A stretch of DNA of 58,883 nt from Daejeonella sp. (GTDB lineage Bacteria > Bacteroidota > Bacteroidia > Sphingobacteriales > Sphingobacteriaceae): positions 1 through 58,883 of the forward strand of contig NZ_JAUXXZ010000019.1 in assembly GCF_030684675.1 (NCBI RefSeq). The letters run 5' to 3'. Positions 553 to 17,129 of this stretch are shown piece by piece. Numbering within the stretch: the first letter of the stretch is position 1; each line of letters begins with the position of its first letter. The position numbers and the translations under genes were made by a program. The notes under the pieces are model-generated. The model had not been told where the DNA came from. It did not search any database and saw only the letters and a program-made list of their open reading frames with translations.

Positions 553-1857
553 ATGAAAGGTATGTCTATATCTGAAAACACAAATCGCAGAGATTTTATA
601 AAATCTACCGGCACTGTATTGGTAGGAAGTACGATCGGCCTCAATCTGGCATTTCCATTGCAGGGATTCCCGAAAAGTAATGATGTATTAAAGGTTGGTT
701 TGATTGGATGCGGGGGAAGAGGAACCGGTGCTGCAAGTCAGGCATTAAAGGCAGATCCTAATGTCATACTTACTGCTATGGCAGATGTATTTCAGGATCG
801 TCTGGATCAATCCTATGACATTCTGCTAAAGGCAGTTCCCGATAAAGTTAAAGTTCCAAAAGAGAACAGATTCGTAGGCTTTGATGCCTATCAGCGGCTG
901 ATTGATTCGGGTGTTGATGTTGTACTATTGACCACACCGCCAGCCTTTAGACCTGAGCAACTCACTGCTGCAGTTAATGCCGGTAAACACATATTTTGTG
1001 AAAAACCGGTTGCGGTAGATGCCCCTGGAGTAAGAAAAGTACTTGCCGCAGCTAAAATGGCCAAGGAGAAAGGCTTGTCGCTCGTTTCAGGATTTACGTT
1101 CCGCTATGATCTTCCCAAAAGGGAGTTGTTCGGAAGGGTACAGAACGGAGAGATTGGAGAGGTTAAAATGGTCAATTCAACACGCAATGGTGGCGGACTT
1201 TGGAATTTCGATCGTAAACCGGAATGGACTGATATGGAATATCAAATGCGTAACTGGTATTATTACGACTGGCTTTCAGGAGATTTTATTGTGGAGATGG
1301 TTGTGCATAATCTGGATATGATGACCTGGGCAATTGGCAGTCAGATGCCAATAAGAGCATTTGGTACCGGTGGAAGACAATCCAGAGTTGAAGAGAAATT
1401 TGGTAATATCTATGATCACTTTGCTATAGAATTTGATTTTGCCAATGGTGTTAAGGGCTATAATTTTTGCCGGCAGCAGGACGGATGTGCATCCAAAAAC
1501 TCAGTTGAAATCATAGGTTCTGAAGGCACAGCCTTTTATCAGGGTAATGTCCATAAGATCAGCGGAAAAAATAACTGGGAATATCAGGGTGAAAAGAAAG
1601 ATATGTACCAGATTCAGCATAATGAGCTATTTGCCTCCATCAGAGCGGGTAAGCCGATGAACGATGGGGAAATGATGGCTAACAGTACGATGCTTGGAAT
1701 TTTGAGCAGAATGGTGGCATACAGTGGGCAGTCAATTACCTGGGAACAGGCTATAAATTCTAATCAGGTTCTCGGACCAGATTTTCACAAGTACGATTGG
1801 GATTTGAAATGGCCGGTTCTTCCTCCTGCGATACCGGGAGTGACTAAGGTGGTATAA
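553..1857 (+). CDS. TAT-exported Gfo/Idh/MocA family oxidoreductase
   Basis: Predicted NAD(P)-dependent sugar or inositol-type dehydrogenase acting outside the cytoplasm. From the start at 553 (434 residues) the N-terminus carries a twin-arginine motif (NRRDFIK, Arg 12-13) and a hydrophobic stretch. The Rossmann glycine motif GCGGRG lies at about 53-57, the family EKP motif at 150-152 and a catalytic-type HNLD (His252, Asp255) further on. An in-frame ATG at 514 would add a hydrophobic, Tyr-rich leader that spoils the TAT signal, so 553 (or 562) is preferred. A DUF1080 protein lies downstream. In Bacteroidota such pairs are linked to 3-keto-sugar formation and cleavage, but the substrate here is unknown. 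The cofactor is probably bound before export, as in glucose-fructose oxidoreductase-type enzymes. Confidence 0.85.
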   Translation: MKGMSISENTNRRDFIKSTGTVLVGSTIGLNLAFPLQGFPKSNDVLKVGLIGCGGRGTGAASQALKADPNVILTAMADVFQDRLDQSYDILLKAVPDKVKVPKENRFVGFDAYQRLIDSGVDVVLLTTPPAFRPEQLTAAVNAGKHIFCEKPVAVDAPGVRKVLAAAKMAKEKGLSLVSGFTFRYDLPKRELFGRVQNGEIGEVKMVNSTRNGGGLWNFDRKPEWTDMEYQMRNWYYYDWLSGDFIVEMVVHNLDMMTWAIGSQMPIRAFGTGGRQSRVEEKFGNIYDHFAIEFDFANGVKGYNFCRQQDGCASKNSVEIIGSEGTAFYQGNVHKISGKNNWEYQGEKKDMYQIQHNELFASIRAGKPMNDGEMMANSTMLGILSRMVAYSGQSITWEQAINSNQVLGPDFHKYDWDLKWPVLPPAIPGVTKVV

Positions 1858-1862
1858 GGTTT

Positions 1863-1889
1863 GTCTCGAAAAGACGCAAAGACGCGGAG
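1863..1889. repeat. Left inverted repeat of GxxExxY cassette
   Basis: Contains GTCTCG, AAAGACGC and AAGACGC blocks. It matches the reverse complement of 2273-2299 at about 23 of 27 positions. It ends just before the start codon at 1893. Confidence 0.75.
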
Positions 1890-1892
1890 CGA

Positions 1893-2270
1893 ATGACAGA
1901 AAACGAAATATCGCTTATAATTGTAAACACGGCCTACCATGTTCATTATACCCTTGGGCCAGGTTTGCTCGAATCAGTGTATGAAGAAATAATGTATTAT
2001 GAGCTGTGCAAACAGGGATTTCATGTTGAAAGACAACAAAGTATTCCAATAATTTGGGACGAGTTGAAAATGGAAATTGGTTTTAGAGCAGATTTAATTG
2101 TTGAGAGTAAAGTCATTGTTGAATTGAAATCAGTCGAAACAATTGCGTCAGTTCATCCTAAGCAATTGCTGACTTATTTAAAAGTGACGGGGATCAAGCT
2201 TGGATTACTAATTAATTTCAACGAACCTTTTATTAAAAATGGAATAACCAGAATTGTCAATAATCTATAA
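1893..2270 (+). CDS. GxxExxY family protein (PD-(D/E)XK-like fold)
   Basis: A 125-residue protein with the family's naming motif (GLLESVY, about residues 24-30). Further on come conserved segments IGFRADLIVE and VIVELKSVE, which resemble the Asp and Glu-x-Lys core of PD-(D/E)XK nucleases, and a terminal stretch LLINFNEP typical of the family. Length matches the usual roughly 125 residues. The biochemical role is not established; an inactive or active nuclease-like fold is likely. It sits alone between two catabolic genes and is framed on both sides by inverted repeats (1863-1889 and 2273-2299), which points to arrival as a small cassette rather than membership of the surrounding pathway. Confidence 0.85.
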   Translation: MTENEISLIIVNTAYHVHYTLGPGLLESVYEEIMYYELCKQGFHVERQQSIPIIWDELKMEIGFRADLIVESKVIVELKSVETIASVHPKQLLTYLKVTGIKLGLLINFNEPFIKNGITRIVNNL

Positions 2271-2272
2271 AC

Positions 2273-2299
2273 CTTTGCGTCTTAGCGTCTTTGCGAGAC
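2273..2299. repeat. Right inverted repeat of GxxExxY cassette
   Basis: Starts two bases after the GxxExxY stop codon. Its reverse complement reads GTCTCG-CAAAGACGC-TAAGACGC-AAAG and mirrors the left copy at 1863-1889. Confidence 0.75.
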
Positions 2300-2367
2300 C
2301 ATTTTAAAAACACCATCATTAACAATTTATAATTTGCATTACAAAGATTGAATTTTAAAAAAAATTA

Positions 2368-2454
2368 CCTCTCGCAAAGACGCTAAGACGCAAAGCGAGA
2401 AACCAAATGCAATGAATAATACATAAACCTTTGCCTCTTTGGGGGGTTGAAACC
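2368..2454. repeat. Second, gene-less copy of the cassette repeat pair
   Basis: 2368-2404 carries the same CGCAAAGACGC/TAAGACGCAAAG pattern in the left orientation. 2428-2454 (CCTTTGCCTCTTTGG and following) is a degenerate copy in the opposite orientation. Only about 23 bases lie between them, so this resembles an empty version of the GxxExxY element. Confidence 0.6.
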
Positions 2455-2502
2455 AAAAGCAACAAGAATTATAGAATGATTTTAAGACTGAAAAAACAAA
2501 AT

Positions 2503-3264
2503 ATGAATAACCCGTTAAAGAAGGGACTAATGTTCCTTAGTGTTCTGCTGATTAGCAGCCAGATATCTTTTTCACAGGAAACCTTGTTTGAGTTTGGTAC
2601 ATCAACCAGTATGGATGCTGTGCTTTCCAAATCAAAAGCAAAGGAAAGCAAACTGAAATGGGTGAATGTCAACACAACAAAAGAGACCTGGAAAGTGATG
2701 AAGGATGGAACCCTTTCAAATACAGGCCTTCCGATCGGGGTTATTCGTTCTGAAAAACAGTATGAAAATTTCATTTTACATGTGGAGTGGAAGCATATGG
2801 AAGCAGGAGGTAATTCCGGAGTATTTGCCTGGAGCGGTGCTAAGCCAGTGGGTAAAAACCCCCTTCCTGATGGTGTAGAAATCCAAATGCTCGATCTTGA
2901 GTGGGTTGACCTCAATATAAGGGATGGTGTAAAACCTCCAATCGCCTATGTGCATGGTGAACTTTTTGGTGTACAAGGTGTAAAAACAATAGCAGATAAT
3001 CCAAGAGGCGACAGAAGCAAGTCGATCGAAAATCGTGTGAAAGGCAAGGGTGAATGGAATACCTATGATGTTGTTTGTGTAGATGGTGTGATTAAGCTTT
3101 CAGTTAACGGAAAGTTTGTGAACGGTATCAGCAAATCCACCCAAAAGAAAGGATATCTCTGCCTGGAATCTGAGGGCGCTCAGATTTTCTACCGAAATCT
3201 TAAAGTTATTGAACTAGCACCCGGAGTAACCTCCGCAGAACAAACTGCAGCTTTGCTTCCTTAA
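2503..3264 (+). CDS. DUF1080 / 3-keto-disaccharide hydrolase-type secreted protein
   Basis: A protein of 253 residues with a Sec signal peptide ([17 protein letters not shown] and a cleavage region near SFSQ). The body is a single concanavalin-like beta-sandwich of the DUF1080 family (segments such as [53 protein letters not shown]). Characterised members cleave 3-keto-glycosides made by a partner dehydrogenase. An earlier in-frame ATG at 2431 lies inside the repeat at 2428-2454 and would put about 24 residues before the signal peptide, so 2503 is chosen. The Gfo/Idh/MocA enzyme upstream is the natural candidate partner, with the GxxExxY cassette wedged between them. Substrate unknown. Confidence 0.85.
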
Positions 3265-3323
3265 TTTGGCAGCTTGAAAATTTAAATGCTTTTTAATTTT
3301 CAATGGCATTTCATTTCTGATTA

Positions 3324-3331
3324 TAATTTTG
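3324..3331 (+). promoter_or_regulatory. Candidate -7 element TAATTTTG
   Basis: Fits the Bacteroidota TAnnTTTG consensus 37 bases before the start of the dehydrogenase lipoprotein gene. No clear -33 box was seen. Confidence 0.4.
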
Positions 3332-3368
3332 CGTAATGCTATCTGCTGCCATTGATTAATTTATTTTA

Positions 3369-6140
3369 ATGAAAAAGTATACCCTTCTGTTTTTTACCCT
3401 GCTAATCATTGTGTCCTGTGTTCTGGGAATGAAGTCAGGAAAATTGCTGAATTTTCCAAATAGGAATACCGGTTTGATTACAGAAGATTCAGTGCTTTCA
3501 TTCACTAAGAATAAACCCGAAAGTAAACCTGCTGATAATAACCGTACAAAAGCTATTAATATTCCTGACAGCAGTCGCTTTACCCGAATTGTACTTGTCC
3601 AGGGTTTCGATGAACCTCTGGGAATGGCAATTCTTCCGAATAATGATGTTTTGCTCGCCGAGCGTAAGGGTAGCGTGAAAATCTATAACAGAGAAACAAA
3701 GCAGGTAAAAACCATCACCAACTTTAATGTGTTCAGTGGCATAGAGGATGGGCTTTTGGGTATTGCGATAGATCCTGATTTTAGTAAGAACCGTTGGGTC
3801 TACTTTTATTACGCTGTAGCAGGCGACCGTCCAGTAAATCGTTTGTCGAGATTTGAATTGCTTGGCGATGCGTTGGTTCAAAACTCAGAAAAGGTTCTGC
3901 TTGAAATCCCAACTCAGAGAAAATATTGCTGCCACTCGGCAGGATATATTTCATTTGATTCAAATGGATTACTCTATTTATCGACAGGTGATAATACCAA
4001 TGCCGAAGAAACAGAGGGTTATACCCCGGTTGATGAGCGATCAGGCCGTGAATTGGCAGACGATCAGGCTACAGCTGCAAATACCAATGATCTGAGAGGG
4101 AAAATTTTGCGAATCAAGCCCCTTGATAATGGGGACTATGCCATTCCTGAGGGGAATTTATTTCCGCCCGGAAATCCGAAAGCCCGCCCTGAGATTTATA
4201 TCATGGGATCCCGAAATCCTTACCGCTTTAGTGTGGACAGGAAAAATAATTATCTGTATTGGGGAGATGTTGGCCCTGATACTAAAGTAATAGGTGATGA
4301 AGGGGAATTGATGAGTTATGATGAGATAAATCAGGCACGCAAGCCCGGCTTTTATGGCTGGCCTTATTTTCTAGGAAACAATCAGGCTTTTCCCAAATAT
4401 GATTTTGAAACAAAAACTTTGGGCCCTAAAAAGGATCCTGCAAATCCGATAAACGATTCTCCGAATAATACAGGTGAACGTGTATTGCCACCGGCACAGG
4501 CAGCGATGATCTGGTTTGGGAAAAAGAACTCTAAAAATTTTCCTTTGCTCGGAAATGGAGGAGCTTCTGCAATGGCAGGGCCTGTATATTATGCTGATCT
4601 TTTTCCGAATGCATCGTATAAATTGCCAAATTATTATAATGGCAAATTATTTATATATGAATGGATCAGGGGCTGGATAATGGCTGTAAGTTTGGATAAG
4701 AATGGAAATTATCTCAGCATGGAGCCTTTTTTGGAGCATATGAATTTTAAAGCCCCGGTAGATATGCAGTTTGGTAACGATGGTGCATTGTATGTACTGG
4801 AGTACGGTACAAACTGGTTCTCCAAAAATATGGATGCAAAACTGGTTCGTATTGAATATCAGGAAGGTAACCGAAATCCGGTAGCAGAGATACAGACTGA
4901 TAAGCAATATGGAGCAAGTCCTTTTTCTGTACAGTTTTCGGGTAAAAAATCAATCGACCATGATCGGGAGGATAAATTATTTTATACCTGGCATATAGAC
5001 AATAAGGAATTTAAGGGCCCAATTGTTAATTATACATTTACTAAAGTTGGAGCCCATACAGTATCCTTAACTGTTACTGACAACAAAGGTGGCCGCGGGA
5101 TTGCCAATACACAAGTATTCGCTGGAAACACCCCTCCGGAAGTTCAGATATCAACATCTGCCAATCGCAGCTTTTACTGGGATAATTCCTTGTTTGATTA
5201 TAATGTAATGGTGAAGGATAAGGAAGAAACAGCAATAAAGTCCGAGAGTATCAAAGTTACTTTCGGCTACCTGCCCCGGGGGAAAGATGTAGCTGTTATT
5301 TTAACCCAAAATCAGGATGCTGGCAATTTCAACTATTTGAAGGGGCAGCAGCTGACTGCTACTCTGGATTGTAAATCCTGTCATTCTGTCGACAAAGCAT
5401 CGGTTGGCCCAACATATCTGGCTATCTCAGAGCGATATTCCCAAAAGCAGGGTGCCCTGAGCTATCTTACTGGTAAAATTATCCAGGGAGGTAGCGGAGA
5501 ATGGGGTGAACGTGCGATGATACCTCATCCTGAGCTTCCTGAATCTGATGCTGAGGAGATAGTTAAGTACATATTCTCCTTGACTGATAAAGCAGGAGGT
5601 AAGCGTTCGTTAAAAGATGAAATTGTTTTAAAAGAACATATCGGGAAAGGAATAGATGGTCTTTACCTTTTGAATGCGACCTATACCGATCGGGGTGCGA
5701 ATGGAATAGAACCCCTGCAAAGCCGTGACTATATTACTTTACGAAATCCATTTGTTCAGGCAGAAGATTTTGATGAAGGGAATGTCCGCTTGGGAACCAT
5801 CACTACAGATTTTCTTACCTATGCAACAAGTATAAATCATAATAGTTTTATACGCTTTAATTTCATTGACCTCAGGAATGTTAAACAATTGAAATACAGG
5901 GTTCGGGCTCAGTCGGGGGGAGTAATTGAAGTTCATCATGGAAATAAAAATGGTCCGCTGATAAGTTCAATAAAAATTCCAGCCAGAATAACTGGCTCTC
6001 AGGCTCATTGGACTGAAATTGTAGCAGATCTCAAAGAAACGAGAGGAGTGCAGGATTTGTATTTTGTATTTACTGATGAAACCGGAAAGAAGAATTTATT
6101 TGATATAGACTGGATCTATTTTGGCAATGATACATTATAG
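3369..6140 (+). CDS. PQQ sugar dehydrogenase-PKD-cytochrome c-CBM lipoprotein
   Basis: A 923-residue multidomain surface redox enzyme. A lipoprotein signal ends in IIVSC (Cys17). Residues about 73-490 are a glucose/sorbosone dehydrogenase beta-propeller, with the His189 region (CCHSAGYISF) and the GSRNPYRFS motif corresponding to active-site segments of soluble quinoprotein glucose dehydrogenase. A PKD domain follows (about 503-586), then a class I cytochrome c domain (Cys668-x-x-Cys671-His672, distal Met near 717 in AMIPHP), and a C-terminal carbohydrate-binding-like beta-sandwich (about 797-923). The layout implies oxidation of an aldose or glycoside outside the cell and direct electron transfer to the attached heme. 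The separate cytochrome c at 9308 could be the next carrier. PQQ dependence and substrate are inferred from the family. Confidence 0.88.
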   Translation: MKKYTLLFFTLLIIVSCVLGMKSGKLLNFPNRNTGLITEDSVLSFTKNKPESKPADNNRTKAINIPDSSRFTRIVLVQGFDEPLGMAILPNNDVLLAERKGSVKIYNRETKQVKTITNFNVFSGIEDGLLGIAIDPDFSKNRWVYFYYAVAGDRPVNRLSRFELLGDALVQNSEKVLLEIPTQRKYCCHSAGYISFDSNGLLYLSTGDNTNAEETEGYTPVDERSGRELADDQATAANTNDLRGKILRIKPLDNGDYAIPEGNLFPPGNPKARPEIYIMGSRNPYRFSVDRKNNYLYWGDVGPDTKVIGDEGELMSYDEINQARKPGFYGWPYFLGNNQAFPKYDFETKTLGPKKDPANPINDSPNNTGERVLPPAQAAMIWFGKKNSKNFPLLGNGGASAMAGPVYYADLFPNASYKLPNYYNGKLFIYEWIRGWIMAVSLDKNGNYLSMEPFLEHMNFKAPVDMQFGNDGALYVLEYGTNWFSKNMDAKLVRIEYQEGNRNPVAEIQTDKQYGASPFSVQFSGKKSIDHDREDKLFYTWHIDNKEFKGPIVNYTFTKVGAHTVSLTVTDNKGGRGIANTQVFAGNTPPEVQISTSANRSFYWDNSLFDYNVMVKDKEETAIKSESIKVTFGYLPRGKDVAVILTQNQDAGNFNYLKGQQLTATLDCKSCHSVDKASVGPTYLAISERYSQKQGALSYLTGKIIQGGSGEWGERAMIPHPELPESDAEEIVKYIFSLTDKAGGKRSLKDEIVLKEHIGKGIDGLYLLNATYTDRGANGIEPLQSRDYITLRNPFVQAEDFDEGNVRLGTITTDFLTYATSINHNSFIRFNFIDLRNVKQLKYRVRAQSGGVIEVHHGNKNGPLISSIKIPARITGSQAHWTEIVADLKETRGVQDLYFVFTDETGKKNLFDIDWIYFGNDTL

Positions 6141-6365
6141 ATAAAAACTATATTGCTTATAAACCTATCAAAATAAAGACCTGAACTTATTTCAGCCAAA
6201 GTGTTTGTCATAATATAAGATCATCCGGGAAAGCTTGCTGTATACCCGGAATATGTAATGACCATTGAAAAATTACATAAGCAGCCGCAAAATTTGACTA
6301 TTTTTCATAATATTTACCTGTTTGTTCAGGAAAGACCAGACCATATTACCATTAGAACATTTATA

Positions 6366-7637
6366 ATGCAAAAACTATTTCTGATATTCTTTTCAATTTT
6401 AAGTATCCAGGCTATGGCTCAAAAGGCGGATCCGGTGTATGCCATAATTATTAAAGGCGGACATGTTATCGATCCAAAGAACAGTATTAATGAGGTGATG
6501 GATGTCGCAATTGATAAGGCGGGGAAGATTGCTTCCGTTTCAAAAAATATTGATCCTAAATCAGCCGCCAGAGTGGTTAATGCGAAGGGTTTATACGTCA
6601 CTCCGGGTATCATTGATATGCATACGCATAATTTTGCGGGAACCGAGCCTGATAAATATTTAAGGAACAGTTATTATGCCAACCAGCCCGATGGATTCAC
6701 TTTTCGTGTGGGTGTAACTACGGTTGTAGATGCAGGAAGCGCGGGCTGGCGCAACTTTGAAAAGTTTAAAGATCAAACGATTGACAGGGCAAGGACCCGG
6801 GTTCTCGCATTTCTCAATATTGTGGGTGAAGGTATGGCCGGGGGAGCAATAGAACAGGATAATAATGATATGGATGCGCGTAAAACTGCAGATATGGCTT
6901 TAAAATATAAAGATCTGATTGTTGGTTTTAAGGTAGCGCATTATAATAAACCGGATTGGGTTCCAATTGACCGTGCGATCGAAGCCGGGAAAATTGCAGG
7001 GAACATTCCGGTTATCGTTGATTTTGGTGGCGGGGGACTTTCATTGGAAGAACTGACATTGAAGAAATTCCGTCCGGGAGATATTTATACCCATACTTAT
7101 GGTGGAGGTGGTAATGACCGCGAAGCCATCACTGATCCTGTAAGTGGAGATCTTCGTCCTTTTGTATTTGAGGCAAGAAACAGAGGGGTTATCTGGGACG
7201 TGGGTCATGGTGCTGCTAGTTTTTCATTCAAACACGCTGTTCCGGCAACCAAGGCAGGCTTCTTTCCGGATGTGATCAGTACTGATCATCATGGCGGAAG
7301 TATGAATTCGGCAATGAAGGATATTTTGAATGTGATGAACAAATTTCTTACCCTTGGCATGGATGTTCCTGCAATTATCAATTCAGTGACATGGAAGCCT
7401 GCACAGGTTATTCACAGGGAGGAAATCGGAAATCTTTCTGTGGGTTCTGAGGGTGATGTAACTGTTCTGCGGATCCGAAAAGGAAAGTTTGGGGTTTTTG
7501 ATCAGATGGGCGAGAGGCTGCAGGGCAGGCAGCGCTTTGAATGTGAAGTTACGGTGAAAGGCGGACGGGTATTTTATGACTTGAATGGGTTAACCTATCC
7601 GCTGCCAAGAGTAGCCGGCGGACTTCCGGCCCTTTAA
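6366..7637 (+). CDS. Exported amidohydrolase/deacetylase (COG3964-like)
   Basis: Binuclear-type metallohydrolase of the amidohydrolase superfamily, 423 residues from the chosen start. The metal ligands are visible: His86-x-His88 (DMHTHNF), a Lys189 suited to carbamylation (VGFKVAH), His243 (YTHTYGG), His281 (DVGHGAA) and Asp307 (ISTDHHG). Residues 1-18 form a Sec signal peptide (FLIFFSILSIQAMA). An in-frame ATG at 6258 would add 36 residues ahead of it and is rejected. Relatives are often misnamed dihydroorotase; some hydrolyse acyl groups from alpha-substituted carboxylates. The next gene, 12 bases on, encodes the PLP enzyme that accompanies this family in many genomes. Deacetylation of an N-acetyl amino-sugar acid is a reasonable but untested role. 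Confidence 0.85.
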   Translation: MQKLFLIFFSILSIQAMAQKADPVYAIIIKGGHVIDPKNSINEVMDVAIDKAGKIASVSKNIDPKSAARVVNAKGLYVTPGIIDMHTHNFAGTEPDKYLRNSYYANQPDGFTFRVGVTTVVDAGSAGWRNFEKFKDQTIDRARTRVLAFLNIVGEGMAGGAIEQDNNDMDARKTADMALKYKDLIVGFKVAHYNKPDWVPIDRAIEAGKIAGNIPVIVDFGGGGLSLEELTLKKFRPGDIYTHTYGGGGNDREAITDPVSGDLRPFVFEARNRGVIWDVGHGAASFSFKHAVPATKAGFFPDVISTDHHGGSMNSAMKDILNVMNKFLTLGMDVPAIINSVTWKPAQVIHREEIGNLSVGSEGDVTVLRIRKGKFGVFDQMGERLQGRQRFECEVTVKGGRVFYDLNGLTYPLPRVAGGLPAL

Positions 7638-7649
7638 TTTAAGAAACAG

Positions 7650-9251
7650 ATGAACAGGAGAGAATTAATAAAAGGCCTGAGCCTATTGCCTGTTGCAGGT
7701 GCGGTTTCAGGATCCGGCATAGAATCTGTCTTTGCCGCGAGCCCGGTAATGGCCAGGCAGCCAGGCAAAAGTATTTATGAGGCCATAGGTGTTCGTCCGC
7801 TGATCAATGCAAGGGGTACAGTCACGGTGGTTGGCGCAAGCCAGATCCTTCCTGAAGTGCAAAAAGCAATGGATGAAGCGGTTAAGGAATATGTTCAGAT
7901 TGATGAGCTCATGGATGCGGTGGGTGCCCGTTTGGGGGAACTGACCGGCACAGAGTTCGGTTATGTCAGTTCGGGTGCTTCGGCTGCGATTACGGCTGCT
8001 ACTGCAGGTTGTGTAACCGGGGGTGATCCTGATAAGCTATGGATGATTCCTGATCTTACAGGTATGAAGGATGAAGTGATAATTCCTGCTTATTCCCGTA
8101 CAGCTTATGATGCAGCTGCAAAAGCTGTCGGAGTGCGAATGGTAGAGGTAAATACCCTTGATGATTTAAAAGTGGCAATCGGTCCGCGTACGGCAATGAT
8201 ACTTGTTCTTGCCGGTGGACGTTCAGAGAACGGACCCCTATCAATCAAAGAGATAGCATCCATTGCAAAACCTCTTGGTGTGCCAATTTTGGTTGATGCT
8301 GCAGCCGAAGTACTGGAAGTTCCTAATCCGCATATTGCCCAGGGTGCCGACCTTGTTGCATACAGCGGGGGTAAATATATCCGCGGTCCGCAATGTGCAG
8401 GCTTATTATTGGGGCGTAAAGACCTGATCATTGCATCCAGAATAAATGCCGGACCACATCATGGTTTTGGCCGTGGATTTAAGGTTGGCCGTGAAGAGAT
8501 TATGGGCATGCTTGCGGCAGTAGAAACCTGGTTCAAGCGTGATCATGCTGCAGAATGGAAGACCTGGGTATCTTATGGAAATCACATCATACAGCGTCTG
8601 GCGAATGTAAAGGGAGTGACCACACAACTGAGCGAGCCCAAAGGAAGAAGTAACCGTGCTCCTTCTGTGACTATTAACTGGGATAAATCAGTAATTCCGT
8701 TGACCGGCGAAGATATGGAGGGACTTTTATGGGATGGTACTCCACGCATTGCTGTGAGCGGAGCAGGAAGTTTCCTTCCGTTTCCACCTAATTTGCAGCC
8801 TAATATCAGTATTCATACTCCGGCACTACAACCTGGCGAAGAAAAAATAATTGCCGATAGGGTGTATGCCCTATTAACCAAACCTCCAATGATCAAGCGA
8901 GTTGCCGGTGAGGCTTCTTTTGACCTTAGCGGGCAGTGGGACCTTAAAATGAAATTCTCTGCCAGTACAGTAGATCAGACCTTGATCATTGAGCAAAAGG
9001 GTAATGAATTTATCGGAACACATATTGCCAGTATAGGCTCCCGCGACCTTGACGGGACGCTTCATGGTAAACAGATTACGATACGGAGCTCGTATACCAA
9101 AGATGGTGTTCGTATTAATTACACATTCACAGGAACTGCCGAAGCAAATACGATGCAGGGAAAGGTGAGCCTGAGTGAGTATGGAGATGCTGAATGGACA
9201 GCCAAACGACATGAATATCGTCCGGCAGGTGCAAGACGTAGCAGAGGATAA
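7650..9251 (+). CDS. TAT-exported DgaE/SelA-like PLP-dependent lyase
   Basis: A fold-type I PLP enzyme of the SelA-related group that includes D-glucosaminate-6-phosphate ammonia-lyase (DgaE). 533 residues. The N-terminus has a twin-arginine motif (NRRELIKG, Arg 3-4). The PLP lysine is Lys242 in YSGGKYIRGPQ, and Asp216 in ILVDAAAE should pair with the pyridine nitrogen. The catalytic part ends near 405. Residues about 410-533 are an additional beta-rich module (FDLSGQWDLKMKF, GTHIASIGSRDLDGTLHGK) reminiscent of lipocalin-like barrels and not present in the cytosolic relatives I know. The TAT route fits an enzyme that must fold around PLP before export. The likely reaction is elimination of ammonia from a 2-amino-2-deoxy sugar acid, unphosphorylated because it works outside the cytoplasm (inference). 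Confidence 0.8.
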   Translation: MNRRELIKGLSLLPVAGAVSGSGIESVFAASPVMARQPGKSIYEAIGVRPLINARGTVTVVGASQILPEVQKAMDEAVKEYVQIDELMDAVGARLGELTGTEFGYVSSGASAAITAATAGCVTGGDPDKLWMIPDLTGMKDEVIIPAYSRTAYDAAAKAVGVRMVEVNTLDDLKVAIGPRTAMILVLAGGRSENGPLSIKEIASIAKPLGVPILVDAAAEVLEVPNPHIAQGADLVAYSGGKYIRGPQCAGLLLGRKDLIIASRINAGPHHGFGRGFKVGREEIMGMLAAVETWFKRDHAAEWKTWVSYGNHIIQRLANVKGVTTQLSEPKGRSNRAPSVTINWDKSVIPLTGEDMEGLLWDGTPRIAVSGAGSFLPFPPNLQPNISIHTPALQPGEEKIIADRVYALLTKPPMIKRVAGEASFDLSGQWDLKMKFSASTVDQTLIIEQKGNEFIGTHIASIGSRDLDGTLHGKQITIRSSYTKDGVRINYTFTGTAEANTMQGKVSLSEYGDAEWTAKRHEYRPAGARRSRG

Positions 9252-9307
9252 TTTTAAAATGGGTACTTATGTTTTGGCTTTGTGCAATTTTATAAAGATG
9301 AACTGAT

Positions 9308-9751
9308 ATGCGGCCTATAAGATCTGTTCTATTGCTTACTTGTCTGAGTACTCTGGTCTTGTCATTCACCGGTGCCTATGATGCACAGCCACAGGATTGG
9401 AAAGCTCCGGCATGGGCAGATACTTTATATAATCCATATCATATTGAGCCTCTGACATTGCCACAGGCTCAGGAGATATATAATTTATACTGTATTTCCT
9501 GCCATGGTAATCAGGGACAGGGTTATCCGCTGGAACATACCAGTCAGCAGGTGCCTGATTTTAAGGACGATGTGCTTATGAGCCAAAGCGATGGAGCTTT
9601 ATACTGGAAGTTAAGAGAGGGTAAAGGCATTATGCCAGGATTTAAATCCAAACTATCGGATGAGCAGCAATGGCAGCTTGTTGAGTATATCAGAGACCTT
9701 TCAAAGCCCTTTCATCTTCAGAAAAATCCATTTAAATCGCTTAATAATTGA
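9308..9751 (+). CDS. Periplasmic class I cytochrome c
   Basis: A 147-residue mono-heme cytochrome. A signal peptide (SVLLLTCLSTLVLSF) precedes the heme motif Cys62-x-x-Cys65-His66 (YCISCHGNQGQG), and Met109 in GIMPGF is the likely distal ligand, followed by the terminal helix WQLVEYIRDLSK. It lies 56 bases after the PLP enzyme gene and before the lactonase gene, so it probably takes electrons from the quinoprotein lipoprotein of this cluster to a terminal oxidase. That partner assignment rests on neighbourhood only. Confidence 0.88.
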   Translation: MRPIRSVLLLTCLSTLVLSFTGAYDAQPQDWKAPAWADTLYNPYHIEPLTLPQAQEIYNLYCISCHGNQGQGYPLEHTSQQVPDFKDDVLMSQSDGALYWKLREGKGIMPGFKSKLSDEQQWQLVEYIRDLSKPFHLQKNPFKSLNN

Positions 9752-9800
9752 TTAAAAATACTTTATTACTTAAATTGAATTATTCACAAATTATCAGACT

Positions 9801-10940
9801 ATGAAGAAGTTAATTTCATTTGGTTTTGTCCTGACCTTGCTTATTGCAGATTCTTCTGAGCTTTTAGCTCAGCCAGGAACGAAAAGTATCATTTATGCAG
9901 GTTCATCTTCGGCGAGAGGAAGTAAAGGAATCTATGTTTTGGAATTCGACCAGCAGAAAGGTACACTCAAGGAATTGCAAACAGTGACTGAGGGTAGCAG
10001 CCCCGGCTTTTTAGCTTTCAGTCCGAATAAAGAGTTTTTGTATTCAATTTATGGTAAGGGTACCCTTGAGGATGGGAATGGTGCGGTTATGTCATTTAAA
10101 ATAGATCCTTTTACAGGGTTCTTAAAAAAAGTGAATGAGCAATCTGTAGGAGGTAAAGGACCAGCCCATATCAGTATTGATCCAAAGGGCAGGTTTGCAT
10201 ATACAGCCAATTATGGCGATGCAAGTGTAACTGTATTTCCGATAAATTCGGATGGCACGCTGGCTAAAGCCTCTGATTATGTTAAGCATACCGGTAGCAG
10301 TACTAATCCACAGCGGCAGAAGGAGCCACATCCACACTCCAGTATTCCATCCGCCGATGGTAAGTTTTTGTACGTTTCTGATTTGGGCACAGATAAGATT
10401 ATGATTTATGAAGTTATGAATGGTGGAAAATTAAAACCCGCTGCTGTTCCGTTTGTACAGGTAGCTGCAGGTTCAGGTCCCAGACATTTTAAAATCCATA
10501 AGAACGGCAAGTTTGCCTATTCTGTTGATGAATTATCCAATACTATTGTTGCCTTTAAAGTGAATAAGAAAACCGGAGCTCTTACGATTATTGAGCGTTT
10601 AAGCATGCTTCCCGAAGGTTATTCCGAGGTGACTTATGCCTCTGATGTTCATTTCTCGCCGGATGGCAAATTTATTTATGCTACGAACAGAGGGCATGAA
10701 AGTGTCGTAATCTATGGTGTTAACGCGAAGAACGGAAAATTAAACATAATTGGACATGAGTCGACCGGAGGGAAACATCCGAGAAACTTCATGATCAGCA
10801 AGTCGGGCGAATATGTCCTGGTAGGTAATACAAACACCGATAATGTGGTAATTTTTAACAGAGACAATAAAACCGGCTTGCTTAAACCTAATGGGGTTCA
10901 GTACACTATTCCGGCTGTGAGTTGTTTGATTGAGTTGTAG
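9801..10940 (+). CDS. Exported lactonase-family beta-propeller (Pgl/YbhE type)
   Basis: A 379-residue seven-bladed propeller of the 6-phosphogluconolactonase/carboxy-muconate cyclase family. A signal peptide ends near SSELLAQPG. Repeated blade motifs include PAHISIDPKGRFAYTANYGD, PHPHSSIPSADGKFLYVSDLG and PRHFKIHKNGKFAY; the repeated GPRHF/HPRNF phrases are typical. Being exported, it cannot act on cytosolic 6-phosphogluconolactone. A sugar lactone produced by the quinoprotein dehydrogenase of this cluster is the more sensible substrate. It is the last gene of the plus-strand block. Many exported homologues remain uncharacterised, so activity is inferred. Confidence 0.82.
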   Translation: MKKLISFGFVLTLLIADSSELLAQPGTKSIIYAGSSSARGSKGIYVLEFDQQKGTLKELQTVTEGSSPGFLAFSPNKEFLYSIYGKGTLEDGNGAVMSFKIDPFTGFLKKVNEQSVGGKGPAHISIDPKGRFAYTANYGDASVTVFPINSDGTLAKASDYVKHTGSSTNPQRQKEPHPHSSIPSADGKFLYVSDLGTDKIMIYEVMNGGKLKPAAVPFVQVAAGSGPRHFKIHKNGKFAYSVDELSNTIVAFKVNKKTGALTIIERLSMLPEGYSEVTYASDVHFSPDGKFIYATNRGHESVVIYGVNAKNGKLNIIGHESTGGKHPRNFMISKSGEYVLVGNTNTDNVVIFNRDNKTGLLKPNGVQYTIPAVSCLIEL

Positions 10941-13031: not shown

Positions 13032-15968
13032 TCACCATACCGGGTTATCCCTGATTGGAAGTTTGGCAAATTTTTCAACCTCGATAGCGGGGCAGCCAAA
13101 ATCCTCGACTACTTTTCCGAGGATCAGATAGCAGCCCTTTCCTCTGAAAGGATAGGAAGGAGTAGTATTCGGAAAATGAACAGTATCCAGGAATTCGCCC
13201 TCTGCATCCAGAAAAGTGCCGAACCACATTTTCTTATTGTTTTTTGTGCGGACTGTCTTTTCGCAGACGTAATTGCCAGCTAACCGGATTGTTTTGTTGA
13301 GGTGCTTTGATAAATCTTTTGCTGCAACATCCCCGCGGTAATCTGATTTCATCAGGTCGAACATACTCATGCTTATCGGATAACCTAATAATTCGAGCTC
13401 ATTATAGGCATCTTCCAGTATCGAGCTTTCCAGTTCGGGCAGATAGAGTTCTTTCGCTTCGGTACAGAACAGTTCGGTATCCTGTTTAGGCACAACTTTG
13501 CTGCCGAGGTAATTATACACTTCCCATAGCAGCTCTTTTTTGTTCTTTCCGCTAAAGCTGAAAGCCCCGATGCGGATCAGGATAATGGCCTGATCGAGTG
13601 TGATTCCGGTTCGTTTGATAAAATCGGCAAGGTCGCGGTAGGGGCCATTGGCGTCCCGCTCAGCCTGGATAAGCTCGAGGTATCGGCTTTCGAGTCCCTG
13701 CAGGCCAATAAAACCCAGCCATGCATCTTTACCTCTGATCCTAACCTTCGCTTCACTATTGTTTACACAGGGTAAATGCACCTGGGCACCCGATTTCTGT
13801 AGCTCATGAACATAGACCCAGCGCTGGTAAAAGCCGCCGTAATTATTCAGTACAGCTACCATAAACTCCATGGGATAATAAGTTTTGAGAAAGAGGCTCT
13901 GATAACTCTCTACAGCGAATGAAGCGGAGTGTGCTTTTGAGAAACTGTACCCAGCAAAAGATGAGACCTGCCGCCAGACTTCTTCGGTAGTTTTCTCATC
14001 TCTTCCAATTTCTTTGGCACGGTCAAAAAATCGCTGAACCAGGCGATCGAATTCCTTTTTAGAACGATATTTCCCGCTCATACCCCGACGCAAAACGTCG
14101 GCATCTGTCAGGTCAAGCCCGGCATAATGGTAGCAGATCTTGATCACATCTTCCTGATACACCATCACGCCGAATGTCTCATGGAGATGCTCTTTCATCA
14201 CCGGGTGCAGGTATTTTACATTTTCGGGATCATGGTAATTGCTGATATAAGTCTTCATCATACCCGAAGAGGCTACTCCGGGACGGATGATGGAGCTTGC
14301 GGCAACGAGTGTCAGATAACTTTCACATCCTAATTTTTTCAGCAGTTGCCGCATGGCAGGCGATTCGATGTAAAAGCAGCCGATGGTTTTCCCTGTTTTT
14401 AATTTTGCATTGATTTTCGGGTCCTTCATAAAGGAGCTAACCGCATGGATATCCAGTTTTGTTTTCTGATTTTCGAGGACGAGCCGGACCGCCTCTTTGA
14501 TATGTCCGATGCCTCTCTGGCTCAGGATATCGAATTTTTCATATCCGATGGCTTCGGCTTCATACATGTCCCATTGCACGGTAGGCATGCCCTTGGGTGG
14601 CAGATCCAGTGCGGTATAATAGGTAATCGGTTCTTCCGAGATCAGCACACCTCCTGCATGGATAGAACGTTGATTAGGCATATGCTGCATCATGCTCTGA
14701 ATGGCCAGTATCTTAGCGAAAGTCGGGTTGTTCCAGTTCTGCTCCTGTTTTGTCGGGTCGGTAAAACTGTCTATTTCCTGAGCCGGCAAGCCCATCACCT
14801 TGCTGATCTCCCGGATGATGGATCGGTCTTTAAAGGTGCTCATCGTTCCCAGTAATGCAGTGTTATTGCTGCCGTAACGTTTAAATATATAGTCCTGCAC
14901 ATCTTCCCGTTCATCCCAGCTGTAATCGATGTCGAAGTCGGGCGGACTACTCCGCTGCCGGTTCAGAAAGCGTTCAAAATATAAGTCGAGTTCTATCGGA
15001 TCCACATCAGTGATGCGCATGCAGTAAGAGACGATGCTGTTTGCCCCTGAGCCCCTTCCAATATGGTAATAGCCCCTGCCCATCGAATAACGGATGATAT
15101 CCCATGTGATCAGAAAATAAGCAGAGAAATGCAGTTCATTAATAACCGCAAGTTCTTTCTGTACCCGTTTTAAAGCTTCCCGGTTCGAGCGGCCATAGCG
15201 GTATTCCATTCCTTCAAGGGCGAGTTTTTCGAGTAGGGCTTTATCATCTTTTGCCGATCCGGTAAATGTTTTCCGGTTCTTGGAACCCTTTTCAAAGCTG
15301 CTGCTGCAGTCGTTCATCAGCTTCCCGGTATTACTAATAATGAAGGGATAGCCCTCATAACGTTTTTTCAGCTGATCAGGGGGCAGGAACACCTCATCCT
15401 CATGGCAGCAGTCATTTTTCCCGATCTTGGAGAGCAGGGTGTTCAGGTCTATCCCCCTTAAATAGGTATGCAGGCGATGCTCTATTTTATTGCTGAAAGT
15501 CACGCTATGCAGAGCCACAATCTTTTCCCTGATCCCTGATAAGGGCTTCCCGAAAAGGCTGTTCAGATCCCGGTAGGGGATACCCAGAAATTCATTTTCT
15601 TTCAGAGCCCTGTGTTCAGAACTGTATGGATATATGATGTAAACATTCTGAAAATCCCAGGGATTGTCGGGCAGCTCCAGACTGTTGAGCTTGTAGAAGC
15701 TAAGGAAGTCATTCAATTCTTTCATGCCTTCCCTGTTGCGGGCTATCCCGATAAACAGAAGTCCGGATGATCTCCTGAACTCAATACCTGTGATGGCTTT
15801 GATCCCCTTTTCCTGGCATTCCCTGATGAATTCCATCGCTCCCGTCGAGTTATTGATATCGGTAAGCGCCATTTGTTCTATCCCCATAGTTTTAGCCTGC
15901 TCTACTAGTTTTTCGACAGGGAGGGTGCCGTAACGCAAACTATATTGTGAATGAACATTCAGGTACAT
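13032..15968 (-). CDS. dnaE2: Error-prone DNA polymerase III alpha-type (DnaE2-like)
   Basis: C-family DNA polymerase of 978 residues, shorter than the replicative DnaE (about 1160 or more). An N-terminal PHP domain begins with VHSQYSLRYG, but its second metal motif reads LTDINN instead of LTDH, so it is probably inactive as a nuclease. The palm carries the catalytic aspartate motif PDFDIDYS (344-350) and a later KFDILSQRGI. Finger motifs HIGRGSGANSIVSY and RSIHAGGVLI are clear. The next gene upstream, 3 bases away, is a DinB-type polymerase, so the two are surely co-transcribed. This matches the two-gene translesion module common in Bacteroidota. imuA and imuB are not in the window. An SOS link is plausible but no operator was identified. 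Confidence 0.85.
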   Translation of the reverse strand: MYLNVHSQYSLRYGTLPVEKLVEQAKTMGIEQMALTDINNSTGAMEFIRECQEKGIKAITGIEFRRSSGLLFIGIARNREGMKELNDFLSFYKLNSLELPDNPWDFQNVYIIYPYSSEHRALKENEFLGIPYRDLNSLFGKPLSGIREKIVALHSVTFSNKIEHRLHTYLRGIDLNTLLSKIGKNDCCHEDEVFLPPDQLKKRYEGYPFIISNTGKLMNDCSSSFEKGSKNRKTFTGSAKDDKALLEKLALEGMEYRYGRSNREALKRVQKELAVINELHFSAYFLITWDIIRYSMGRGYYHIGRGSGANSIVSYCMRITDVDPIELDLYFERFLNRQRSSPPDFDIDYSWDEREDVQDYIFKRYGSNNTALLGTMSTFKDRSIIREISKVMGLPAQEIDSFTDPTKQEQNWNNPTFAKILAIQSMMQHMPNQRSIHAGGVLISEEPITYYTALDLPPKGMPTVQWDMYEAEAIGYEKFDILSQRGIGHIKEAVRLVLENQKTKLDIHAVSSFMKDPKINAKLKTGKTIGCFYIESPAMRQLLKKLGCESYLTLVAASSIIRPGVASSGMMKTYISNYHDPENVKYLHPVMKEHLHETFGVMVYQEDVIKICYHYAGLDLTDADVLRRGMSGKYRSKKEFDRLVQRFFDRAKEIGRDEKTTEEVWRQVSSFAGYSFSKAHSASFAVESYQSLFLKTYYPMEFMVAVLNNYGGFYQRWVYVHELQKSGAQVHLPCVNNSEAKVRIRGKDAWLGFIGLQGLESRYLELIQAERDANGPYRDLADFIKRTGITLDQAIILIRIGAFSFSGKNKKELLWEVYNYLGSKVVPKQDTELFCTEAKELYLPELESSILEDAYNELELLGYPISMSMFDLMKSDYRGDVAAKDLSKHLNKTIRLAGNYVCEKTVRTKNNKKMWFGTFLDAEGEFLDTVHFPNTTPSYPFRGKGCYLILGKVVEDFGCPAIEVEKFAKLPIRDNPVW

Positions 15969-15971
15969 GGC

Positions 15972-17129
15972 TCAGAGATTGATATCGATGCTGGATGCCA
16001 GTTTTACAGCCTTCTCTCCAAATCTGTTCCGGATGCGGTCCATCGCCTGATAAAGTTTATACTGTTCTTCCGAAGCGTCATACAGACTGATTTGTTCATT
16101 TCCGCTTACCAGTTGCGAAAGTTTAACCCCAACCAGGCGAATCAGCATACGCCGGTTGTATAAGGTGTCAAAAAGCTCTTTTGCCTTGCTGATCAGGAAG
16201 GAATCCAGTGAGGTATACGGGATTCTTGCCTGCCGGGTATGGGTTTCGAAATTGGAGTATCGGATGGTTACGGTGATACAGGCAGCCAGTTTTTGCTGTG
16301 ATCTGAGCTGAAAGCAGAGATCCATAACCATGGAACTGAGCAGTTGTTTGATCTTCCGGGTATCAATGCTGTCGTTCTCGAAAGTGCTTTGTGTTCCAAT
16401 CGATTTTTGCTCACGGTAAGGCAGTACCGGCGAATTGTCGATTCCCCGGGCTTTTTGCCAGAGACTGGTACCATTATTTCCCAATGCCCTGAATAATTGT
16501 TCCTGCGAAATCTGAGCCAGTGTATAGATATACCGCACCCCCATTTCGCTCAGCCTGATATAAGTTGCCTGCCCCAGGCCGGGAATCTTTTTAATGGATA
16601 GCGGGTTTAGAAAAGGCTGAACCTCATCTTTCGAAACCTGCCGCTCTCCGTTCGGCTTGCACTCATTGGTGGCGATCTTTGAAACTGTTTTGTTGACCGA
16701 CAGACCGAAGGAAAGAGGAAGCCCGGTCTCCTTCATTACAAATAGCCGCAGTTCATGGGCAAATTTCATGCAGCCATAAAAGCGATCCATTCCGGTCATA
16801 TCGATGTAGTGCTCATCAATAGAAGCTTTTTCAAGCAGAGGAACCCGCTCTTGCAGAATGTCGGTTACTATATGCGAATACTTGCTGTATTCATCCATAT
16901 TTCCGCGGATAAAGATCGCATGCGGACAAAGCTGCCGGGCCATCCGCGAAGGCATAGCAGAGTGGATTCCGAATTTCCGCGCCTCATAACTGCAGGATGC
17001 CACCACCCCGCGATCGGAACTACCTCCGATAATCACCGGTTTCCCAATCAGGGAAGAGTTCTTCAGGAGCTCTACGGATACAAAAAATGCATCCTGATCA
17101 ATATGAATAATGTGCGTGTCTTTTGACAT
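15972..17129 (-). CDS. dinB: Y-family DNA polymerase IV (DinB)
   Basis: 385-residue translesion polymerase. Metal ligands are visible: Asp11 in IIHIDQDAFFVSVE and Asp105-Glu106 in KASIDEHYIDMTG. The last motif differs from the common SIDEAYLD by a His after the acidic pair, a subfamily trait. Helix-hairpin-helix and little-finger parts follow (IKKIPGLGQATYIRLSEMG; RQARIPYTSLDSF). It is the first gene of an operon with the DnaE2-like polymerase 3 bases on. The likely job is extension past damaged bases together with that partner. The upstream 459-base spacer holds repeats but no clear LexA-like site. Confidence 0.9.
   Translation of the reverse strand: MSKDTHIIHIDQDAFFVSVELLKNSSLIGKPVIIGGSSDRGVVASCSYEARKFGIHSAMPSRMARQLCPHAIFIRGNMDEYSKYSHIVTDILQERVPLLEKASIDEHYIDMTGMDRFYGCMKFAHELRLFVMKETGLPLSFGLSVNKTVSKIATNECKPNGERQVSKDEVQPFLNPLSIKKIPGLGQATYIRLSEMGVRYIYTLAQISQEQLFRALGNNGTSLWQKARGIDNSPVLPYREQKSIGTQSTFENDSIDTRKIKQLLSSMVMDLCFQLRSQQKLAACITVTIRYSNFETHTRQARIPYTSLDSFLISKAKELFDTLYNRRMLIRLVGVKLSQLVSGNEQISLYDASEEQYKLYQAMDRIRNRFGEKAVKLASSIDINL

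Follow-up and report, generated by a model that had tools for sequence, protein, structure and literature searches.

A possible extracytoplasmic oxidative and deaminating route for N-acylated amino sugars in a Daejeonella sp. genome

Introduction

Can an N-acylated amino sugar be oxidized and deaminated outside the cytoplasm? The question is raised by a row of genes on one strand at positions 553 to 10,940 of the 58,883-nucleotide stretch analyzed here (hereafter, the window), which is contig C83 of a 4.25-Mb, 84-contig Daejeonella sp. genome. The row encodes a GSDH-type dehydrogenase fused to a cytochrome c, an amidohydrolase, a DgaE/SelA-like pyridoxal phosphate (PLP) enzyme, a c-type cytochrome and a propeller lactonase, preceded by genes for a Gfo/Idh/MocA oxidoreductase and a DUF1080 protein. 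We give roughly even odds (probability about 0.5) to the reading that the products of this locus oxidize and deaminate an N-acylated amino sugar outside the cytoplasm. The dehydrogenase would oxidize C1 of the sugar to a lactone and pass the electrons to cytochrome c, and hydrolysis of this lactone by the lactonase would give an N-acyl-2-amino-aldonate. Next the amidohydrolase would remove the acyl group, and the PLP enzyme, exported by twin-arginine translocation (TAT), would eliminate the 3-hydroxyl to give an enamine/imine and finally a 2-keto-3-deoxy acid and ammonia. RidA proteins encoded at sister loci may help the enamine/imine step, and sister loci also encode an RraA aldolase that looks exported and a BASS symporter, which are suggested to cleave and/or import the keto acid. 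Each reaction, the reaction order and the location were inferred from gene content, export motifs, linkage and residues of the PLP enzyme; the substrate would most likely be of the N-acetyl-hexosaminate type.

Recurrence of the gene set around the PLP gene

Members of the PLP family were sparse, being present in 7 of 296 Bacteroidota genomes (E ≤ 1e-45) and in 10 of 396 genomes of the class (E ≤ 1e-60), with the Daejeonella genome counted in both, and none was found in G122, the sole same-genus genome listed. The best three to four candidates per genome were scored in these scans, and paralogue numbers from them are lower bounds. Outside the close orthologues, 25 loci (from family-bearing genomes, more distant homologues and a Granulicella plasmid) were analyzed within 8 kb of the PLP gene. 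For comparison, 12 regions of the neighbours' genomes and eight of the Daejeonella genome served as controls; these 20 control regions were chosen by place, not at random, and counted over their full length. The amidohydrolase was encoded in 19 loci versus one control region, RidA in 16 versus none, GSDH in 13 versus one, RraA in 11 versus none, and SMP-30 gluconolactonase and the BASS symporter each in nine versus none; for RidA and GSDH, the counts of the sub-profiles were added up by eye. P-values for this linkage are too small because L064/L070, L023/L030 and L021/L024 are close relatives; L062, which duplicates L021, was excluded. The simple caller of open reading frames (ORFs) misses genes in GC-rich loci: in L059 the annotated genes for RidA, amidohydrolase and lactonase escaped it, and in L028 it called no PLP gene; both loci are among the 25.

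Compact operons illustrate the linkage. One (L065) encoded SMP-30, amidohydrolase, BASS, RraA, RidA and PLP proteins, another (L068) SusC, SusD, RidA, PLP enzyme, amidohydrolase and RraA, and larger PLP clusters were present in Limnovirga and Flavihumibacter (L021, L024). According to its annotation, a plasmid of Granulicella tundricola (Acidobacteriota) carried a row of genes for RraA, PLP enzyme, RidA, a second PLP enzyme, amidohydrolase, lactonase and a BBE-domain protein, in a locus that also contained beta-galactosidase and GH125 genes. BBE proteins include flavin adenine dinucleotide (FAD)-dependent sugar oxidases, so an unrelated oxidase may replace the dehydrogenase in Granulicella. 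These recurring neighbourhoods suggest the unphosphorylated extracytoplasmic order of oxidase, lactonase, deacylase and PLP deaminase that an earlier reading of the window (the original prediction) had put forward, with RidA, RraA and BASS as additions.

The Daejeonella genome encoded 18 DgaE-like PLP proteins (E ≤ 2.2e-59; next match, 2e-5), on contigs C3, C4, C9, C40, C47, C53, C59, C62 and C83, and 24 members of the amidohydrolase family (E ≤ 2.9e-104, window gene counted), an unusual expansion for 4.25 Mb. The DNA up to 8 kb from any of the 18 PLP genes, comprising 5.35% of the bases, contained 18 of the 24 amidohydrolase genes (1.3 expected), 9 of 15 RidA ORFs (0.8 expected) and 8 of 18 GSDH places (0.96 expected). 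Neighbours identified with Pfam included RidA, RraA, GSDH-cytochrome fusions, pyrroloquinoline quinone (PQQ) quinoproteins, SMP-30 gluconolactonase, BASS symporter, CBM9, KDPG aldolase (near two clusters), DgoK (near one), PIG-L and a pectate-lyase-family protein. The cluster on C62 (L046), located between SusC and SusD genes, encoded on one strand a GSDH-cytochrome fusion, a lactonase, amidohydrolases, PIG-L, two PLP proteins and RidA. Pfam scans covered 40 neighbour proteins. The others were assigned from their resemblance to these 40 or by visual inspection, which was also the basis for naming SusC, SusD, sigma and anti-sigma genes.

Two families were also noticed in PLP loci. CBM9-type exported-looking proteins recurred in L046, L040 and L045 and, in other genomes, in L063, L064, L067, L070 and L072. 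Proteins of the other family adjoined a PLP gene in the Daejeonella genome (L045:3205-4575 and L045:16209-17507; the one member scanned had no Pfam match), and two adjacent copies were encoded directly upstream of the PLP gene on a Bryobacterales contig (L020:586-3023).

The original prediction had placed the Gfo/Idh/MocA and DUF1080 proteins in the same pathway, which was not supported: profile searches of the 25 other loci detected neither of them at a distance of up to 8 kb from the PLP gene. A DUF1080-like protein was recognized by eye in L065, and in the Granulicella locus (L059) both families lay about 9-11 kb away. In the Daejeonella genome, 2 of the 10 contig places with PF06439 (DUF1080) matches (13 matches) adjoined a PLP gene. 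The present name of PF06439 is '3-keto-disaccharide hydrolase', and the Gfo/Idh/MocA product matched the BT_2158 glycoside 3-dehydrogenase family (BT_2158_fam) weakly and below its cut-off (40 versus 750 bits). The first two genes look separable from the rest, and the Gfo/Idh/MocA gene is probably a separable 3-keto-glycoside module.

Export motifs

Export signals of the locus proteins (Table 1) were assigned by eye and with regular expressions, and TatC was encoded in the genome. All 18 PLP proteins of the Daejeonella genome started with a twin-arginine motif, and R3-R4 was invariant across 33 aligned PLP members. TAT-like N-termini were found in 60 of 64 PLP proteins and 19 of 23 first-type RidA proteins, compared with 16 of 293 control ORFs; the expression matched 41 of 45 scanned, one of them (L026_08) probably by chance. 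TAT-like counts alone were used, since a crude hydrophobicity signal test flagged 143 of the 293 control ORFs.

The PLP enzyme

The nearest solved relatives of the PLP protein, by both sequence profile and fold, were DGL (7lc0; 221 bits) and Cap15 (8t7j; 195 bits). For an AlphaFold2 model (mean predicted local distance difference test score, 80.5), the top fold match was 7lc0 (Foldseek E 5.1e-28; template modelling score 0.85 by target length), with 8t7j at E 9.9e-27; the model also resembled SelA folds, and the DgaE/SelA fold belongs to fold type I. The PLP-binding lysine, K242, was kept in all 33 members of the alignment used (A3), from which the near-copies L009-L014, L018 and L019 and truncated and misframed rows were left out. 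The C-terminal all-beta domain (about residues 428-520) had no Pfam match and lay outside the PDB profile matches listed. A tree of 60 rows, built without L062, truncated sequences and those of 350 aa or fewer, separated a long clade with this domain from a short clade, and the window type formed a distinct branch of the long clade. Of 26 complete rows, a further alignment (A1) kept 25; the excluded one was misframed.

By analogy with DgaE/DGL, with which the fold and the PLP lysine are common, the enzyme would be expected to catalyze beta-elimination from a 2-amino-3-hydroxy acid. It differs from them in its TAT motif and C-terminal domain and in lacking H162/H163 and three phosphate arginines of DGL. 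DGL residues were taken from PMC9529869, whose numbering fits the 7lc0 chain for H162/H163 and R226, with the lysine at chain index 213 and at 217 in the text; they were mapped by eye through the profile alignment. H162/H163 corresponded to G189/G190 in a low-similarity stretch where the alignment is approximate, and no HH occurred at residues 178-200 in any of the 33 members. R301 was replaced by S339, with arginine at that column in none of the 33 rows, and R332 and R346 of the phosphate cluster also aligned with residues other than arginine. The absence of the phosphate-binding arginines fits an unphosphorylated substrate. The carboxylate residue R226 corresponded to R256, a position occupied by arginine in 14 members, lysine in 11 and other residues in eight. 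According to the same paper, the H163A variant of DGL releases the enamine. Loss of the proton-donor histidine would fit such a release here and may explain why RidA proteins, most of them TAT-like, are linked to the enzyme.

Other roles of the PLP enzyme were considered and rejected. Degradation of N-acyl-homoserine lactones by lactonase, acylase and PLP-dependent gamma-elimination would leave the dehydrogenase unexplained, and the protein scored 166 bits as DgaE-like versus 31 bits as Cys/Met-type. Homologues on rhizobial plasmids (L060 and L061; 34% and 32% identity) were rejected as a guide to function: they are two of 248 records and lie near aepX (phosphoenolpyruvate mutase), one adjoining phosphocholine-type genes and the other a phosphonate regulator, and they probably do a different job. 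These two proteins also align across the C-terminal domain.

Dehydrogenase, lactonase and amidohydrolase

The dehydrogenase scored 134 bits against the GSDH family (cut-off, 25), and its histidine and Arg-Asn-Pro residues, which have functional roles in this family, aligned with those of 2ism. A scan for the Bacteroidota -7 promoter element found one TAnnTTTG with its first base 45 bases upstream of the dehydrogenase gene, which is uninformative given 26 on the strand window-wide. PDB relatives of the lactonase included PpgL (6igb, E 3.9e-54), a gluconolactonase of the same lactonase propeller family that is periplasmic by its PDB name.

The amidohydrolase exceeded the PRK09237 cut-off (425 versus 371 bits). 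The metal-ligand pattern of such amidohydrolases is HxH, K, H, H, D, and the candidate ligands H86, H88, H243 and D307 were present in 22 of 22 rows, K189 in 21 and H281 in 20 (alignment A2, 22 of 24 rows, L009 and L016 left out). We relied on this alignment instead of short-word motif counts (41, 44 and 43 of 66), which used narrow patterns. Family membership and the kept candidate ligands thus liken the protein to PRK09237/EF_0837 amidohydrolases (COG3964), from which its exported-looking N-terminus sets it apart. Its best solved relatives were 8je0 and 2ogj (Atu3266), and PpOngB (9kb1) matched the profile at positions 18-85 only (33 bits).

Organization of the locus and its close orthologues

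The features of the locus are listed in Table 1. The ORF list and family searches placed all seven originally described genes where they had been predicted, with matching families, but they are not strictly consecutive, because a GxxExxY gene, probably an unrelated insertion, intervenes. This gene was observed between the Gfo/Idh/MocA and DUF1080 genes in three related loci (the window, L017:3841-4218 and L018:3910-4287); the other loci covering the junction were without it. The start of the DUF1080 gene was corrected to about 2503. Intergenic gaps along the locus were 35, 232, 104, 225, 12, 56 and 49 bp, and the last three define a tight block of amidohydrolase, PLP enzyme, cytochrome c and lactonase genes (6366-10940). 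The contig begins about 500 bp ahead of the first gene, and the upstream neighbourhood lies beyond it.

Table 1. Features of the locus in the window, numbered in gene order
No.	Feature	Position	Strand	Basis
1	Gfo/Idh/MocA oxidoreductase, TAT motif	553..1857	+	Family search; in 5/6 orthologous loci reaching this far
2	GxxExxY / PDDEXK_3 protein, 125 aa	1893..2270	+	Family search
3	DUF1080 protein, Sec-like N-terminus	2503..3264	+	PF06439, 100 bits, cut-off 26.8
4	GSDH + PKD + cytochrome c (CKSCH) + CBM6 fusion, lipobox-like N-terminus	3369..6140	+	Family search
5	PRK09237/EF_0837-type amidohydrolase, Sec-like N-terminus, proposed N-deacylase	6366..7637	+	Above NCBI cut-off
6	DgaE/SelA-like PLP enzyme, TAT motif, C-terminal all-beta domain, proposed ammonia-lyase	7650..9251	+	Profile, fold
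7	c-type cytochrome (CISCH), Sec-like N-terminus, proposed dehydrogenase electron acceptor	9308..9751	+	Family search
8	7-bladed propeller lactonase, Sec-like N-terminus	9801..10940	+	PF10282, 374 bits

Eleven orthologous loci (L009-L019), whose PLP proteins were 79-97% identical to that of the window, were found in Daejeonella and other Bacteroidota records, mostly metagenome-assembled genomes. Their gene content was read by eye, and loci ended by a contig edge were excluded from each count. The layout was kept, with the amidohydrolase in 10 of 10 loci, cytochrome c in 8 of 8, the lactonase in 6 of 6 and DUF1080 in 7 of 7. Since these are near relatives, such conservation shows maintenance of the layout, not independent recurrence.

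Other neighbouring genes were also observed. In L015 (1-4482), the window-type locus was immediately preceded by UbiA, dehydroquinate-synthase-like and phosphodiesterase genes, an ebo-like operon; the corresponding place in L010 (471-3223) contained a gene of the phosphodiesterase type and one for an aminotransferase of class V. Downstream in the window, a DnaE-type polymerase adjoining a DinB/ImuB-like polymerase (13032-17129) and a large restriction/methylase-like protein (19131-22796) were recognized by eye.

Weighing of the proposed route

Several observations weigh against the proposed route. Genes for RidA, RraA and BASS are absent from the window locus itself, and in the Daejeonella genome RraA was weakly linked to PLP genes (2 of 6; 0.3 expected, P 0.04). 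SusC was not enriched near PLP genes (6 of 25 loci versus 5 of 20 control regions). The dehydrogenase is lacking in two orthologous loci, and peptidases encoded beside some Daejeonella clusters fit a pure sugar reading poorly (both below). The PLP enzyme fell far below both curated DgaE cut-offs (NF047797, 162 versus 600 bits; TIGR01437, 166 versus 385). No pqqE above the cut-off was found in the genome, a search without a positive control as none of 14 control genomes passed, and PQQ would accordingly need uptake. Atu3266, the closest characterized relative of the amidohydrolase, reportedly prefers acetyl esters. The eighteen PLP paralogues suggest many substrates.

Part of this evidence bears on other readings. 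The locus may encode several independent exported enzymes (a 3-keto-glycoside pair, an esterase-type amidohydrolase, the PLP enzyme and the dehydrogenase) rather than one pathway. The GxxExxY insertion and the upstream gaps of up to 232 bp point in that direction, as does the variable content of the orthologous loci, in which the dehydrogenase was present in 7 of the 9 informative loci and missing from L014 and L018, and Gfo/Idh/MocA was missing from L015. We consider this unlikely, as the block from amidohydrolase to lactonase is tight and conserved and the linkage is strong across families, a second phylum included. A different single function was suggested by the M19 dipeptidase, M20, M81, gamma-glutamyltranspeptidase and SDF symporter genes of some sister clusters in the Daejeonella genome: the four enzyme families hint at amino-acid derivatives. 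The amidohydrolase and the PLP enzyme could then degrade extracytoplasmic N-acyl-D-amino acids of the D-serine/D-threonine type, with the dehydrogenase and lactonase serving otherwise. OngC, which acts on glucosaminate (GlcN1A), also deaminates D-serine and D-threonine, according to PMC9537276. That reading appears improbable, since it does not account for the repeated presence of GSDH, lactonase and RraA genes near the PLP gene, and the keto product of D-serine or D-threonine would have no 4-hydroxyl for aldolase cleavage. Retro-aldol cleavage by RraA needs a 4-hydroxy-2-keto acid, which an amino-aldonate would yield and these amino acids would not. Finally, Cap15 ('Oxygen- and PLP-dependent Cap15 holoenzyme') matches the PLP enzyme almost as well as DGL does, and the enzyme might be an oxygen-dependent oxidase or oxidative decarboxylase instead of an ammonia-lyase; neighbours of RidA and keto-acid type (RraA, BASS) fit an ammonia-lyase better, and an oxidase seems very unlikely.

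Of these readings, oxidation and deamination of an N-acylated amino sugar outside the cytoplasm is preferred. No chitinase, hexosaminidase or peptidoglycan hydrolase was present among the 40 Pfam-scanned neighbour proteins, which included the pectate-lyase-family protein beside one Daejeonella cluster, and no dedicated search was made for them. Together with the glycosidases of the Granulicella locus, this makes N-acetylglucosamine, chitin or peptidoglycan only one of the possibilities for the substrate. A wider version is more tentative and somewhat doubtful: a complete non-phosphorylating, deaminating Entner-Doudoroff-like amino-sugar route in the cell envelope, made up of the quinoprotein, lactonase, deacylase and an ammonia-lyase exported by TAT as the PLP-loaded holoenzyme, with exported RidA quenching the enamine, exported RraA releasing pyruvate, BASS importing the pyruvate, and the 18 PLP copies covering many amino-sugar acids.

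If the route is real, central-type sugar chemistry (PLP-dependent deamination and aldol cleavage) would take place outside the cytoplasm, and amino sugars would yield ammonia and keto acids through envelope enzymes, with no need for uptake or phosphorylation. Exported RidA proteins would guard the periplasm against reactive enamines, and a role would be given to TAT-exported PLP enzymes that at present are annotated just as 'aminotransferase class V-fold PLP-dependent enzyme' or 'PLP-dependent transferase'.

Comparison with known systems

The original prediction knew of no described pathway of this kind. This needs qualification, because a cytoplasmic conversion of N-acetylglucosaminate (GlcNAc1A) to GlcN1A and 2-keto-3-deoxygluconate (KDG) has been published (PMC9537276); it stood for location, as no extracytoplasmic version of an amino-sugar-acid route was found in the open-licence PMC literature among the matches listed. 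In Pseudoalteromonas, GlcNAc1A from oxidized chitin is converted to GlcN1A and KDG by OngB and OngC inside the cytoplasm (Jiang et al., 2022; PMC9537276). An Aeromonas study discussed the Ong route, which could not be confirmed in its strains (PMC11653859). In Natrarchaeobius, a route for N-acetylglucosamine has been predicted (PMC12343721); it resembles the route proposed here in the oxidation of glucosamine to D-glucosaminate, a DGL homologue and a RutC-family gene in the cluster, and differs in that deacetylation is predicted ahead of oxidation and a kinase step is included.

The Ong route resembles the one proposed here in its deacetylation by an amidohydrolase, its deamination by a PLP enzyme and the lack of phosphorylation before deamination. 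The Ong cluster includes a RidA gene (PMC9537276), which is missing from the window locus and present in 16 of the 25 other loci. The enzymes differ: OngC is a PLP protein of fold type III (PMC9537276), whereas the window enzyme is modelled with the DgaE/SelA fold, and OngB is D-aminoacylase-like (PMC12017989), whereas the window amidohydrolase is of the PRK09237 type. Oxidation of C1 is attributed to a lytic polysaccharide monooxygenase in the Ong route and, in the window locus, is proposed for a dehydrogenase with a lactonase. The Ong route was reported as intracytoplasmic and the route proposed here would be extracytoplasmic. The chemistry is known inside cells; its extracytoplasmic location and the enzyme set are likely new, as far as the literature search shows.

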